From: Myxococcales bacterium 68-20
GTDB taxonomy: Bacteria > Myxococcota_A > Polyangia > Polyangiales > Polyangiaceae
Assembly (NCBI GenBank): GCA_001899635.1
Contig: MKVQ01000012.1
Span: 1 to 64,000, forward strand
Length of the DNA stretch: 64,000 nt
Direction of reading: 5' to 3'
Both the position numbers and the translations under genes were made by a program. Numbering within the stretch: the stretch's first letter is position 1; every line of letters starts with the position of its first letter. The notes under the pieces were generated by a model that saw nothing but the letters and a program-made list of their open reading frames with translations, did no database searches and was not told the origin of the DNA. Positions 57,106 to 60,919 of the stretch are shown here, piece after piece.

Positions 57106-58416
57106 TCAGCCGAAGCTCGCGACGAGGGCGCGGGCTTCGACGATGTTGTCCTCGATGCTGCAGTAGGTCCATCCACCGTAGCGACCGACGGGGTAGACGC
57201 CGCGCGAGCGGAGATCCGCGGCGAGCCGCGCGTGCTCGGACATCGAGCGCTGGGTGATGTGGACGTAGGCCGGATCCATGACGACGTGGTGATCGGCAAC
57301 GAGGCGGTGCCCCTTCGTCACGCCGGTCCTCTCGAGATCGGCGAGGACGCGCTTCTTCATCAGTTCGACGTCGACCACGGCGTCGCGGGCGAAGCCGATC
57401 TCGACGTAGAGGCTCAAGCGATCGGTGTCGAAGATGTTGTCGTAGAAGCCGACTCGATAGAACACGACCTCGCGATCGGGGAAGTAGACCCAGTGAACGT
57501 CCTTTTGCCCCTTGCGATCGAAGCCGAGATTGAAGACGAGGACCTTGTTCCACGAGTACGCCGTCGGATCGTGGGGCACGTGCGCCGCCGCCAGGAGGCG
57601 ATTGAACGGTGCTGACGATACGAGGCGCTCGAACCGGATCTCGCGCTTGTTCGTCGTCGCCACCTTCGTGTCGAGGTCGATCGAGAGGACAGTCTCCGAG
57701 AGCGCGATGCCGTCCGGACGAACCGCGCTCGCGATCGCCTTCACGTATTCGATCGCCCCACCCTCCGGATAGGTGAACTTCGCGTTGTAGCTCGCGTTGT
57801 CGGCGACCTTCATGTTGCGGATGATGTCGGTCAGGTCCGCGTGCGGGAAGAAGCGGCCCATCGCGTCCTTGTCGAGGGACCCGAGATCACAGGCGTAGAG
57901 CTTCTCGTTGTACGGGATGAGGAACTTCTCCGCGATCGACCGGCCGAAGCGCGCGTAGAGCATGCTCTCGAAGCTCTCGGCCGTGCTCGCGGAGTCGTCC
58001 GGCGCGGGCGGCGCGTGCTTGCCGAGGAGCTCTCGCGGCGCACGCGCGAAGTAGAGGTCGTAGAGGCACTCGATCAGCTCCTCCTTCGGGAGCTGGTGGA
58101 TGTTCTTCTGGAACGGAAAGTCGATCTGCGTGCCCTTGTAGTCGATGAACGACTTCTTCACGACGTCGAGGATGCGCTGCTGCGGCATGCGCTCGCGCAA
58201 CCACGCCTCGATCTCCGGGTGCTTGAAGTGGAAGAAGTGCCCGGAATAATCCCAGACGAACCCTTCCTTCTTGATCGTCTTGCAGTAGCCGCCGATCTCG
58301 GAGTCGGCCTCGAGGACGAGGTAGTCGGTGTCTCCGCGCTCCCCGAGCGCCGCCGCGGTGGCGAGACCGGTGATGCCGGCCCCGACGATGAGGGTGCCCA
58401 CGCTCGTCGTTTCCAT
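57106..58416 (-). CDS. FAD-dependent amine oxidase/protoporphyrinogen oxidase-like enzyme
   Basis: This 436-residue flavoenzyme has the dinucleotide motif LIVGAGITGLATAAALGERG and the acidic ribose site (LEADSEIGGYCKTI). Its overall pattern (WDYSGHFFHFKHPEI, FLIPYNEKLYACDLGSLDKD, GGAIEYVKAIASAV, VGRYGGWTYCSIEDNIVEAR) is like the NAD(P)-binding, UDP-galactopyranose-mutase-like and amine-oxidase superfamily. The substrate is unknown. The ATG at 58416 gives METTSVGTLI; the frame above it is poor. It is divergent from a sulfotransferase gene with a 288-bp gap, so they may form one small pathway. Confidence 0.85.
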   Translation of the reverse strand: METTSVGTLIVGAGITGLATAAALGERGDTDYLVLEADSEIGGYCKTIKKEGFVWDYSGHFFHFKHPEIEAWLRERMPQQRILDVVKKSFIDYKGTQIDFPFQKNIHQLPKEELIECLYDLYFARAPRELLGKHAPPAPDDSASTAESFESMLYARFGRSIAEKFLIPYNEKLYACDLGSLDKDAMGRFFPHADLTDIIRNMKVADNASYNAKFTYPEGGAIEYVKAIASAVRPDGIALSETVLSIDLDTKVATTNKREIRFERLVSSAPFNRLLAAAHVPHDPTAYSWNKVLVFNLGFDRKGQKDVHWVYFPDREVVFYRVGFYDNIFDTDRLSLYVEIGFARDAVVDVELMKKRVLADLERTGVTKGHRLVADHHVVMDPAYVHITQRSMSEHARLAADLRSRGVYPVGRYGGWTYCSIEDNIVEARALVASFG

Positions 58417-58704
58417 CGCGCGACACCCTAGCAGATGTTGGTTTCTGCCCGGCCGGATGACGCCCGCGGTCGTCCTTCCGGGTGGCCGCTCACGCGCGCA
58501 CGCCGCGAGCTTCCAGCTCGACGGCTCGCCGCGCGGCACGTCGTATGCGTGGAAGCTCGCTCGCATGCCCCGAGCGAAGCCGAACGGAGAGACGACGGAA
58601 CCATGCGAGCGCGCCGGCAGAGGCGCACGAGCTCCGATGGTGGAGCACGCCGGAGCTCAACCTTCGAGGCGCCGCGGAGATTCCCCTGACGAGGCGCGAC
58701 GTCG

Positions 58705-59970
58705 ATGACGACGACCGCACTCCGTCCAGAGCGCTTCCGCGACCGCGTGCGCGACGTCGTCGTGATCGCGTCGTCATCCCGGAGCGGCTCGAGCCTCTTC
58801 GCCGAGTGGCTGCGCCAATCCAGCGACCTTCTCCACCTCCGCGGCGAGCCGAACCCGCTGCTCCGATCGGTCGGGCTGATGACGGGGGCGTCGGGACGTG
58901 ACGGTCCTTCCGACGTGCTCTCCCCCGACGACGTTCCGCCCGATTGCCGTCTCGACGACTTGTTCGCACGCGATGCGGGACATCCGGCGCCGAAGTCCGC
59001 CGCCGTCGACGTGGCCCAGCTCGCCTCGGATTGGCACTGGCGGCTCGGCATGGAGTGGCCCGGCGCACGCTTCCATCCGGAGGACGTCTTCGGCTGGACG
59101 GCCGCGGCGCTCCGGGACATCGGGTATCGTCCAGGCCAGGCGCTCGACGTAAATGCGTTCGCGCTGCGGTTCTTGGACCGCGTCGCCGAGGTCCACTCTC
59201 GGGTATCGCCCTACCGCTACGATCTCCCGGCTTCACTCGTTCGAGAGCACCATCCCGGAATGCTCGTCCCCGACGGCCCGCCGGGCGAAGGCCTGATCGA
59301 GGAACCTCCGTTCATCCTCGTCGTGCCTTGGTCGCGGGTCCGGCCGGAGGAAGTCGGCCGGCATCCGCTCGTCTTGAAGACGCCGAGCGCCGGCTACCAG
59401 CTCGGCTTCTATTGCGCGCTCTTTGCGTCGGCGCGCGTGCGCGTCATCCACCTCGTGCGCAATCCGGCTGCCTGCATCAACGGGCTGCTCGACGGGTGGA
59501 TGCACCATGGGTTCTTCTCCCGCCAGCTCCCCGATCGGCTGCGGATCCGCGGCTACAGCGACGTGTTCCCTGCGTGGGGTCGCTCCTGGTGGAAGTTCGA
59601 CCTTCCACCGGGCTGGGAAGCGTACGCGGGGGCGAGCCTCGGCGAGGTCTGCGCGTTCCAGTGGGCCTCGGCCCATCGGGCGATCTTGAACGCCATCGAC
59701 GTGCTCCGCCTCGAGTCGCTCCGGATTCGCTTCGAGGACTTCATCGCGCCCGACGACCGTGCACGCCAAACGCGGAAGCAGGTCTGCGATTGGCTGGGGA
59801 CCGCCGAGCACGTCGATGGTGAGCTCCCTCGTGTCATGTCGACGCGCCCTCCGCGACCGTTTCGCTGGCACGCACGCGCGGACGAGCTGACACCGCTCTT
59901 CGAGACGGAGCGCGTGCGTTCGATCGCGCGCGAGCTCGGATACGGAGCCGACCATGCCGACTGGAGCTGA
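58705..59970 (+). CDS. PAPS-dependent sulfotransferase
   Basis: This 421-residue enzyme has the 5-prime-phosphosulfate loop ASSSRSGSSLFAEWLRQ and the 3-prime-phosphate region RVIHLVRNPAACINGLLDG with GRSWWKFDLPPGW following. These are the two PAPS-binding elements of the sulfotransferase family, which moves sulfate from PAPS to a hydroxyl or amine. It has no membrane helix. The start is an ATG. Its stop lies 17 bp inside the amidinotransferase-like gene, so the two are translated together, which suggests action on the same small molecule. Confidence 0.88.
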   Translation: MTTTALRPERFRDRVRDVVVIASSSRSGSSLFAEWLRQSSDLLHLRGEPNPLLRSVGLMTGASGRDGPSDVLSPDDVPPDCRLDDLFARDAGHPAPKSAAVDVAQLASDWHWRLGMEWPGARFHPEDVFGWTAAALRDIGYRPGQALDVNAFALRFLDRVAEVHSRVSPYRYDLPASLVREHHPGMLVPDGPPGEGLIEEPPFILVVPWSRVRPEEVGRHPLVLKTPSAGYQLGFYCALFASARVRVIHLVRNPAACINGLLDGWMHHGFFSRQLPDRLRIRGYSDVFPAWGRSWWKFDLPPGWEAYAGASLGEVCAFQWASAHRAILNAIDVLRLESLRIRFEDFIAPDDRARQTRKQVCDWLGTAEHVDGELPRVMSTRPPRPFRWHARADELTPLFETERVRSIARELGYGADHADWS

Positions 59971-60919
59971 GCCTCGTGTGGAGCACCTGCCGGCGACGCT
60001 GGGCGGTCCTGGATTTCGCGTCCGCGCGCAGTCGCACCGGGAGGACGTCGAAGAGGGCCGCGTCTGGCACACCTGCGGCTCGTCCTCGGAGACAGCACCG
60101 CTGCTCGAGGTCGTGCTCGGCTGGCCACCGGACACGCTCGCATCCTCCCGTCCGGCGGATGACGACCTGCTCCTCGAGCGCCCCGATCTCGCGCGCATGC
60201 GGGAGGAGGCCGTCGCGCTCGCAGAGCACCTCCGGTCGAGCGGCGTCGGTGTGCACTGGGTCCGCGACGTCGACGCGCCGCCGAACGTCGTCTTCATGCG
60301 GGACCTGTTCTTCATGACCCCGGAGGGTGCGATCATCGCTCGCCCCGCCGCCGAGCAGCGCGCGCTCGAGCCCAGGCTCGTCGCCGCGCGGCTCGCAGCC
60401 CTCGGTGCGCCGATCCTCGCGACCGTGCACGGCCGCGGCTGCTTCGAGGGGGCCGACGCCCTATGGCTCGATCCGGAGACGGTCCTCATCGGCATCCGCC
60501 GCACGAACGTGGAGGGTGCAGAGCAGGTCTCGCGCGTCCTCGCTCCGATGGGAATACGCACGATCCGTCTGCCGGTGCCGCCTCGAATCCAACACCTGCT
60601 CGGCGCGATGATCTTCGTCGAGCCTGGTCGCGCAGTCCTTCATCCGCGCGCCGTGAAGACGGAGATCGAGGCAGTCCTGCGTGCGCATGGCGTCGCTCTC
60701 GTCGTCCTCCCCGACGACGACGAGGTCACGCTCATCCGCGCCATGAACTTCGTCGTCCTCGGGGACGGCCGCCTTCTGATGCCCGAAGGCTCACCCCGCG
60801 CCGAGGCGCTCTACCGCCACACGGGATGGGCACCCGAGACCGTCCGGATCGGCGAGTACCTGAGCTGCGCCGGCGGGCTCGGATGCATCGTCGGCATTCT
60901 CCGACGCTCGTCTGGCTAG
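59954..60919 (+). CDS. Amidinotransferase/arginine-deiminase-superfamily enzyme
   Basis: This 321-residue protein has the guanidino-group-modifying enzyme layout: FMRDLFFMTPEGAII, FEGADALWLDPETVLIGIR with the Glu and Asp, a His in IQHLLGAMIFVEPGRAVLH, NFVVLGDGRLLMPEG, and a C-terminal Cys in LSCAGGLGCIVGILRR. The family includes amidinotransferases, arginine deiminase and dimethylarginine hydrolase. The motif spacing fits the amidinotransferase branch best. The ATG overlaps the sulfotransferase stop by 17 bp. With that gene and the divergent flavoenzyme it suggests modification of an arginine- or amine-containing compound. Confidence 0.85.
   Translation: MPTGAEPRVEHLPATLGGPGFRVRAQSHREDVEEGRVWHTCGSSSETAPLLEVVLGWPPDTLASSRPADDDLLLERPDLARMREEAVALAEHLRSSGVGVHWVRDVDAPPNVVFMRDLFFMTPEGAIIARPAAEQRALEPRLVAARLAALGAPILATVHGRGCFEGADALWLDPETVLIGIRRTNVEGAEQVSRVLAPMGIRTIRLPVPPRIQHLLGAMIFVEPGRAVLHPRAVKTEIEAVLRAHGVALVVLPDDDEVTLIRAMNFVVLGDGRLLMPEGSPRAEALYRHTGWAPETVRIGEYLSCAGGLGCIVGILRRSSG

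Follow-up and report, generated by a model that had tools for sequence, protein, structure and literature searches.

An orphan pair of NucO- and NucN-type genes next to a flavoenzyme gene in a myxobacterium: a candidate unit for sulfamate formation

The window of this study, i.e., the whole stretch of DNA that was analyzed, comprises 64,000 nucleotides of Myxococcales bacterium 68-20 (assembly GCA_001899635.1, contig MKVQ01000012.1, positions 1 to 64,000 of the forward strand), and the genes in question encode a flavin adenine dinucleotide (FAD)-dependent protein, a sulfotransferase-like protein, and a guanidino-modifying protein. The original prediction had joined the three in one biosynthetic cluster. 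All three open reading frames are present at the coordinates listed here, and the locus is an ordinary flavoenzyme gene beside an unusual orphan pair. As judged from the sequences, this pair represents NucO and NucN, the putative S–N-bond part of the nucleocidin/ascamycin sulfamylation machinery, without the partner genes that were searched for. The features are as follows:

58705..59970, plus strand: NucO/AcmO-type sulfotransferase-like protein, 421 amino acids (open reading frame, family alignments, sulfotransferase fold)
58771..58794, plus strand: P-loop-like segment SSSRSGSS, residues 23–30 of the NucO-like protein (conservation of R26, G28, and S29)
59954..60919, plus strand: NucN/AcmN-type guanidino-modifying, hydrolase-like protein, 321 amino acids (open reading frame, alignment, fold)
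60593..60595, plus strand: codon of His214 in the NucN-like gene (43 of 43 alignment rows; aligned to 3rhy and 4bof)
60884..60886, plus strand: codon of Cys311 in the NucN-like gene, the expected nucleophile (43 of 43 alignment rows; aligned to 3rhy)
57106..58416, minus strand: FAD-dependent UDP-galactopyranose-mutase-like protein, a neighbor that appears not to be in the module (kept across the genus with or without the pair)

The NucO-like and NucN-like genes overlap by 17 bp on the same strand. General family models recognize their products to different degrees: the NucO-like protein scores 24.6 bits against Sulfotransfer_3, under the curated cut-off of 27, and the NucN-like protein 34.7 bits against the arginine deiminase (ADI) family PF02274, above the cut-off of 22.8. 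Membership of the pair in the NucO and NucN families is nevertheless nearly certain. The NucO-like protein is 42% identical to NucO of Streptomyces calvus (locus L063) over 425 columns and carries the family motifs SSSRGGSS, EEPPF, RN.AASINGL.DGW, WWKFD.PPGW, and QW..AH over its full length, deviating from them at the single positions S27 and C257. The NucN-like protein is 47% identical to S. calvus NucN (L136) over 315 columns, compared with 28% for a generic S. calvus paralogue that resembles dimethylarginine dimethylaminohydrolase (DDAH), and the A3 profile gives 413.6 bits for the NucN gene in S. calvus and 63.2 bits for the next superfamily protein. The surroundings of the relatives fit this assignment: the loci also hold genes for a sulfatase, a B12-binding radical S-adenosylmethionine (SAM) protein, a rubrerythrin-like protein, a gyrase-B/methyltransferase fusion, and a separate methyltransferase, and annotation and size match acmK, acmO, acmN, acmG, acmJ, acmQ, acmP, and acmL in the accessible part of the ascamycin cluster description (PMC4257720). 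In this correspondence, the first sulfotransferase gene ST1 equals acmK, the second (ST2) acmO, and the ADI/DDAH-like gene acmN, while the sulfatase is G and the radical SAM protein J, with names taken from acm. The S. calvus T3018 locus L063 holds G, J, K, L, Q, P, and O inside 10 kb, with NucN upstream on the same contig, and its gene content and a neighboring phosphorylase gene indicate that it is probably the published nuc cluster. As a separate observation, the NucP-like fusion of a gyrase-B-type ATPase with a SAM methyltransferase (L036:15529-17478; L063:5860-7872) lies beside the radical SAM gene and a pseudo-rubrerythrin-like gene in many loci.

According to excerpts of published work, nucleocidin sulfamylation in both S. 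calvus and S. virens needs the NucO and NucN genes; NucO is annotated as a sulfotransferase only tentatively, and the gene requirement leaves undisclosed how and when the amine enters nucleocidin (PMC10946740). A review, in the part available to us, considers that the amidinotransferase very likely requires a second enzyme for sulfamate formation (PMC9113183), and S–N bond formation in nucleocidin and ascamycin is called unknown in the sections at hand of both articles (PMC9113183, PMC10946740). Related passages compare the sulfodiaminophosphinyl group of phaseolotoxin with ascamycin (PMC5453526) and describe ascamycin alanylation without touching on how the S–N bond forms (PMC12945691). Searches of the open-licence literature listed no experiments on what NucN or NucO catalyzes, nor any on such a pair standing alone.

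The window genome contains a reduced version of this system. In its assembly (completeness 98.4%), the A2 profile of NucK had no match at E ≤ 0.001, and this search works, because the same profile finds S. calvus NucK (382.4 bits) and matches in five of 11 other genomes (391 to 427 bits). The best match to NucJ is just 25% identical and was not taken as an orthologue, and no full-length NucP fusion was found, the gyrase half matching at two places and the methyltransferase half at two others. The complete sulfamylation sub-cluster was thus not found: NucK, NucJ, and NucP are absent, in a genome-wide search that covered these three and not NucL, NucQ, NucG, or NucI. The closest pair, from Labilithrix sp. 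ACE_MYX7 (L048), is 68% identical to that of the window in both proteins, and its genome likewise showed no NucK match and no NucP fusion. Streptomyces sp. MMG1533 (L111) has NucO and NucN together with a weak partial NucK-like match (89 bits) and no NucP fusion, and in Tahibacter (L061) K, O, and N are present and the NucP fusion is absent. In the NucO tree, whose root serves for drawing only, the window and Labilithrix proteins are sisters (100/99) and join Tahibacter, a long branch (98/90), outside the S. calvus branch (95/88). Between the window and L048, the ratio of nonsynonymous to synonymous substitution rates (dN/dS) is 0.24 for each of the two genes, and both are under purifying selection. 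Two matches to adenosine 5′-phosphosulfate kinase in the window genome would provide for the supply of 3′-phosphoadenosine 5′-phosphosulfate (PAPS). The persistence of NucO and NucN without NucK, NucJ, and NucP is our main argument that the two proteins probably act in one common substrate chain for which a nucleoside is not needed.

The association of the two genes was followed in two samples. In a phylum sample of 282 genomes, 24 match the sulfotransferase-like protein, the window genome and a weak partial match (G265) included, and wide regions were fetched for 20, omitting G265 (probably a generic sulfotransferase) as well as G151 and G223, whose matches were split over short contigs. A motif scan of public genomes with two family motif patterns gave 140 confirmed relatives, and the loci discussed here are the best 80 of these 140; several of them are taken to be the same contigs as phylum regions, and, because of the way the relatives were found and ranked, the linkage rate is no unbiased census. 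A NucN-like gene lies directly behind the NucO-like gene, in the same order and on the same strand, in 50 of the 80 loci, with gaps of −29 to 165 bp in the alignments, and 0.9 to 2.5 kb downstream in three; three more are truncated by a contig end, and 24 have no NucN inside the locus. Eleven of these 24 carry NucN elsewhere in the genome (L058, L071, L084, L063, L064, L067, L080, L085, L091, L097, L100), six have none, and seven were not followed (L056, L077, L083, L090, L096, L120, L124). When 15 further genomes were chosen for the lack of NucN at the locus, nine had it (381 to 484 bits) and six did not. In the phylum regions, the ADI/DDAH-like gene follows the NucO-like gene in 14 of 20, mostly overlapping it or otherwise at no more than about 90 bp, with 878 bp in L037; in the other six (G104, G203, G108, G193, G063, and G189, corresponding to L067, L080, L085, L091, L097, and L100), NucN is found elsewhere with 381 to 484 bits. 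ST1, which corresponds to acmK, occurs in all 20 regions, directly upstream in 19 (−13 to 98 bp) and about 7 kb from the NucO-like gene in L028. The distances within NucO and within NucN correlate (r 0.93, 54 pairs, reached by none of 2000 permutations), to which shared ancestry contributes. Since order, strand, and direct adjacency recur in 50 of 80 loci, a chance adjacency of the two genes is not plausible. The NucO-like and NucN-like genes form a conserved pair, and the trio with the FAD gene does not.

This linkage bears out the earlier idea that sulfation is coupled to guanidine chemistry, and a small metabolite is the likely output of the pair. The combination cannot be called rare, as had been supposed, as the pair is found under many phylum labels and its taxonomic reach extends well beyond actinomycetes: rows of the NucO-like tree are labeled Myxococcota, Thermodesulfobacteriota, Pseudomonadota, Acidobacteriota, Gemmatimonadota, Armatimonadota, Omnitrophota, Elusimicrobiota, and others, some labels of metagenome-assembled genomes being doubtful. 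Within the order of the window genome, the NucO-like gene occurs in just two of 183 genomes, both in its own genus (two of 12 there). A distant NucO-like clade (100/100; L118, L120, L122, L124, L126, L109, L119, with Rugamonas, Solimicrobium, and Kerfeldbacteria) has no NucN in the locus; four of its genomes (L118, L122, L126, L119) were searched and contained NucN in none, and the clade is possibly a different sulfotransferase subfamily. In a plasmid search, 11 records matched the NucO-like query, none with a place covering 80% of it. Haloarchaeal plasmids (H2-H10) encode proteins, mostly annotated as sulfotransferases, that are about 36–39% identical to NucO-like residues 219–420.

Alignments and models were used to ask what the two proteins may do. 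The NucO alignment (A4) consists of 53 of the 80 loci plus the window (54 rows), and the NucN alignment (A5) of 42 of those 53 plus the window (43 rows). The predicted model of the NucO-like protein (predicted local distance difference test score, pLDDT, 92.6) points to a sulfotransferase fold, with a Z value of 16.8 for CurM (4gbm) over 226 residues at 3.5 Å and a tied 16.5 for tyrosylprotein sulfotransferase. The P-loop of sulfotransferases binds the 5′-phosphosulfate of PAPS, and the SSSRSGSS segment would be expected to do the same; its residues R26, G28, and S29 are conserved in 53 of 54 rows and fall in a gap in the last one, and R252 is found in all 54.

The NucN-like protein (model pLDDT 96.6) appears, by its sequence, nearer to the DDAH and ADI hydrolases than to amidinotransferases. 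Against solved structures, the NucN profile matches DDAH with E 1.6e-26 and ADI with E 1.1e-21, whereas glycine amidinotransferase (AGAT) is reached only with E 9.3e-4 or worse and just at profile positions ~251–311 in the C-terminal part; a full-length similarity to solved amidinotransferases was not found, StrB1 giving E 0.042 and SxtG E 0.22. The NucN-like sequence itself matches 3rhy with E 1.1e-10. D117, E165, H214, C311, R136, R183, and N111 are each present in all 43 rows. Aligned to 3rhy and 4bof, D117, E165, H214, and C311 occupy the sites of the catalytic Asp, Glu, His, and Cys. R136 and R183 fall where DDAH and ADI hold the alpha-carboxylate of arginine. In ADI, a second guanidinium-binding acid follows two residues past the catalytic His (HxD), as in the HLD of 4bof. 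This acid is not present in the NucN family, in which H214, L215, and L216 form HLL in 43 of 43 rows; DDAH has HLK, and by analogy with DDAH the lack of an acid after the His may leave room for a substituted guanidine. The description of the enzyme as an amidinotransferase loses ground, since its sequence lies nearer to the hydrolases of the superfamily, although the fold fits both activities about equally.

From these observations, we propose the following route. A sulfuryl transfer by the NucO-like enzyme, from PAPS onto one of the guanidino nitrogens of arginine, would yield N-omega-sulfo-arginine. Cys311 of the NucN-like enzyme would then attack the guanidino carbon, as DDAH does with methylated arginine, so that hydrolysis would free citrulline and sulfamate. 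In nucleocidin producers, other genes would deliver the sulfamoyl group to the nucleoside; the myxobacterium would make sulfamate as such or a small compound bearing it. We put forward the complete mechanism only tentatively, as an explanation somewhat short of an even chance. That NucO and NucN constitute a self-contained two-enzyme sulfamate synthase, which in some myxobacteria stands alone with sulfamate or a small sulfamate as the end product, is a further step that we regard as rather doubtful.

Several points weigh against this proposal. To our knowledge, no activity is known for any NucO or NucN. The VIA Z values of the NucN-like model are 34.1 for ADI (284 residues, 2.1 Å), 30.7 for DDAH, 30.1 for AGAT, and 29.7 for SxtG; ADI ranks highest, DDAH and the amidinotransferases are nearly equal, and the fold does not decide between hydrolase and amidinotransferase. 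Furthermore, the cut-offs of the NCBIfam DDAH equivalogs are missed by far (78 versus 340, 50.7 versus 450, and 38.8 versus 300 bits). Concerning NucO, the 3′-phosphate motif of sulfotransferases has a Ser eight residues after the Arg, and the position R252+8 is G260 in all 54 rows, with which the use of PAPS is not assured. A229 and Q232 are found solely in the NucO of the window and of L048, N/D and R occupying these positions in 52 of 54 rows, so that these two may act on another substrate than the NucO of full clusters. In six genomes with a NucO-like gene (L078, L106, L118, L119, L122, L126), a genome-wide search found no NucN; L078, which sits on the actinomycete branch of the NucO tree, gave just a generic match of 70.9 bits. 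The true N-sulfating enzyme could be NucK, which many clusters contain. Finally, in the portion of a labeling study available to us, oxygen-18 is reported to be incorporated intact at C-5′ of nucleocidin (PMC10616807), which suggests that the 5′-oxygen is retained; free sulfamate would in that case need activation before its transfer to this oxygen.

The data allow equally a variant in which the guanidine of arginine is joined to an already sulfated molecule, from which NucN then frees the sulfamoyl group. Among the more distant explanations, it is unlikely, if still worth considering, that the pair acts on another guanidino or ureido compound, such as agmatine or a peptide arginine, and yields a sulfated small molecule without free sulfamate. 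The A229 and Q232 changes, exclusive to the two myxobacterial NucO copies, would fit such a substrate, as would the surroundings of the L048 pair, in which, of the window-region genes searched, just the pair and one weak AAA-type match were found; the retention of R136 and R183, at the carboxylate-binding positions of DDAH and ADI, in every NucN row, the window included, argues against it. We consider it less probable still that NucN is, as published work has proposed, an amidinotransferase: a sulfated acceptor would receive the amidino group from arginine, and another enzyme would cleave it later. The literature annotates AcmN and NucN in this way in the parts available (PMC4257720, PMC9113183, PMC10946740), and the fold fits of AGAT and SxtG come near that of DDAH, but the profile favors DDAH and ADI and matches AGAT only in its C-terminal part, and the partners NucK, NucJ, and NucP are missing in the window genome. 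Very improbable is a decaying remnant of a former full sulfamylation cluster with no present function: the scarcity of the pair in the order and the absence of the three partners would agree with decay, whereas both reading frames are intact, the catalytic positions are kept, and dN/dS is as low as 0.24 in each gene at 68% protein identity. A joint product of flavoenzyme, sulfotransferase, and amidinotransferase, suggested by their adjacency in this one genome, is scarcely credible, as the FAD gene occurs in relatives without the pair, beside a MoxR gene, lies on another contig in the nearest relative, and is seen at none of the 80 NucO loci.

We rejected this three-gene cluster because the FAD gene is a gene of the genus with its own conserved neighbor; it looks like a bystander outside the module. 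Its product matches Amino_oxidase (PF01593, E 1.1e-19) and NAD_binding_8, and among solved structures it comes closest to UDP-galactopyranose mutases (4dsg, E 1.2e-27); the start at 58416 on the minus strand was picked by homology, the longest open reading frame beginning at 58566. Of 108 genomes of the family, 67 match the gene (E ≤ 1e-40), 38 of them at ≥58% identity with two of these partial, and it is present at ≥70% identity in 11 of 12 members of the genus, the twelfth (G372) having a 29% match only. It adjoins a gene for a MoxR-type ATPase in all four relatives examined (G371, G370, G368, G369), most of which lack the pair, at ≤40 bp in three and ~1.1 kb in one. In the window genome, ~11 kb separate the FAD gene from the MoxR gene, a stretch that holds the pair, genes for an outer-membrane protein and an SMR transporter, a TetR gene, and others; on the other side, the next syntenic gene follows after 7.7 kb, compared with 0.06 to 3 kb in the four relatives. 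The nearest relative (G371, considered identical with the L048 assembly) carries the pair on contig C117, apart from the FAD gene on C97. The genus distribution, the MoxR synteny, and the altered spacing suggest by parsimony that the pair arrived in a region where the FAD gene is stably resident. The divergent arrangement that had been described is real here, and no FAD homologue was found at E ≤ 1e-6 in the best 80 of 140 NucO loci or in the 20 wide phylum regions; the original prediction had named orthologues scattered over unrelated contexts, with no co-occurrence, as its refutation, and this check goes against the FAD gene and in favor of the pair.

Other genes of the window are recorded here as side observations. 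Two adjacent minus-strand genes at 52661-55911 encode formylglycine-generating-enzyme-like (FGE-sulfatase) proteins, and neither these nor the next gene (51638-52654) had a match around the FAD gene in the four relatives. Close to the pair and in the same extra stretch, the SMR transporter gene adjoins the TetR-type regulator gene (62563-63458); the transporter could export something, but it is generic. The promoter scan gave zero promoter-like sites, and terminator-like sites numbered 2 versus 1.1 expected. A saxitoxin-like pathway was dropped, as there is no carbamoyltransferase among the nine window proteins scanned and the pair matches the nucleocidin genes. Elsewhere, several genomes of family f33 have, close to NucK-NucO, a carbamoyltransferase gene together with another gene that matches no Pfam family (L036:5036-7534, and similarly in L034, L037, L040, and L041), which could belong to a sulfamate pathway or reflect mere local synteny.

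A reduced system that keeps NucO and NucN without at least NucK, NucJ, and NucP points to both proteins as the bond-forming unit, and it makes a two-enzyme test in vitro possible. NucO and NucN are not an actinomycete oddity, and their loci provide a map toward new sulfamate compounds. If the proposed route is true, the origin of the sulfamoyl nitrogen in nucleocidin and ascamycin would be solved, and sulfamate would join the metabolites of many bacterial phyla. The enzymes belong to known families; searches of the open-licence literature showed neither such a stand-alone arrangement nor an interpretation of NucN as a DDAH-like hydrolase completing the S–N bond.

Compared with known systems, CurM (4gbm) is the top fold match of the NucO-like model; its chain has 283 residues, 138 fewer than the NucO-like protein, and 226 residues are aligned. 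For the NucN-like protein, DDAH of Pseudomonas aeruginosa (3rhy/1h70) is the best profile match, its catalytic positions align, and it also has no acid two residues after the His; the two differ in length (321 versus ~255 residues) and are 22–24% identical, and the NucN-like protein is usually encoded beside NucO. Arginine deiminase (4bof, 2a9g) gives the highest VIA Z and shares with the NucN-like protein a PN-x5-D motif and an FxRD-type motif, but has HLD in 4bof where the NucN-like protein has HLL. The S. calvus pair is clustered with G, J, K, L, Q, and P (L063), whereas the window genome has no NucK, no NucJ orthologue, and no NucP fusion, and its NucO-like protein is altered at two near-invariant family positions. 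For NucO, a weak sulfotransferase signature and CurM as the nearest fold are reported in the accessible part of the study (PMC10946740), and the same holds for the NucO-like protein of the window. With NucO and NucN of nucleocidin biosynthesis (S. calvus, S. virens) and AcmO and AcmN of ascamycin biosynthesis (Streptomyces sp. JCM9888), the two window proteins are homologous over nearly their full length.

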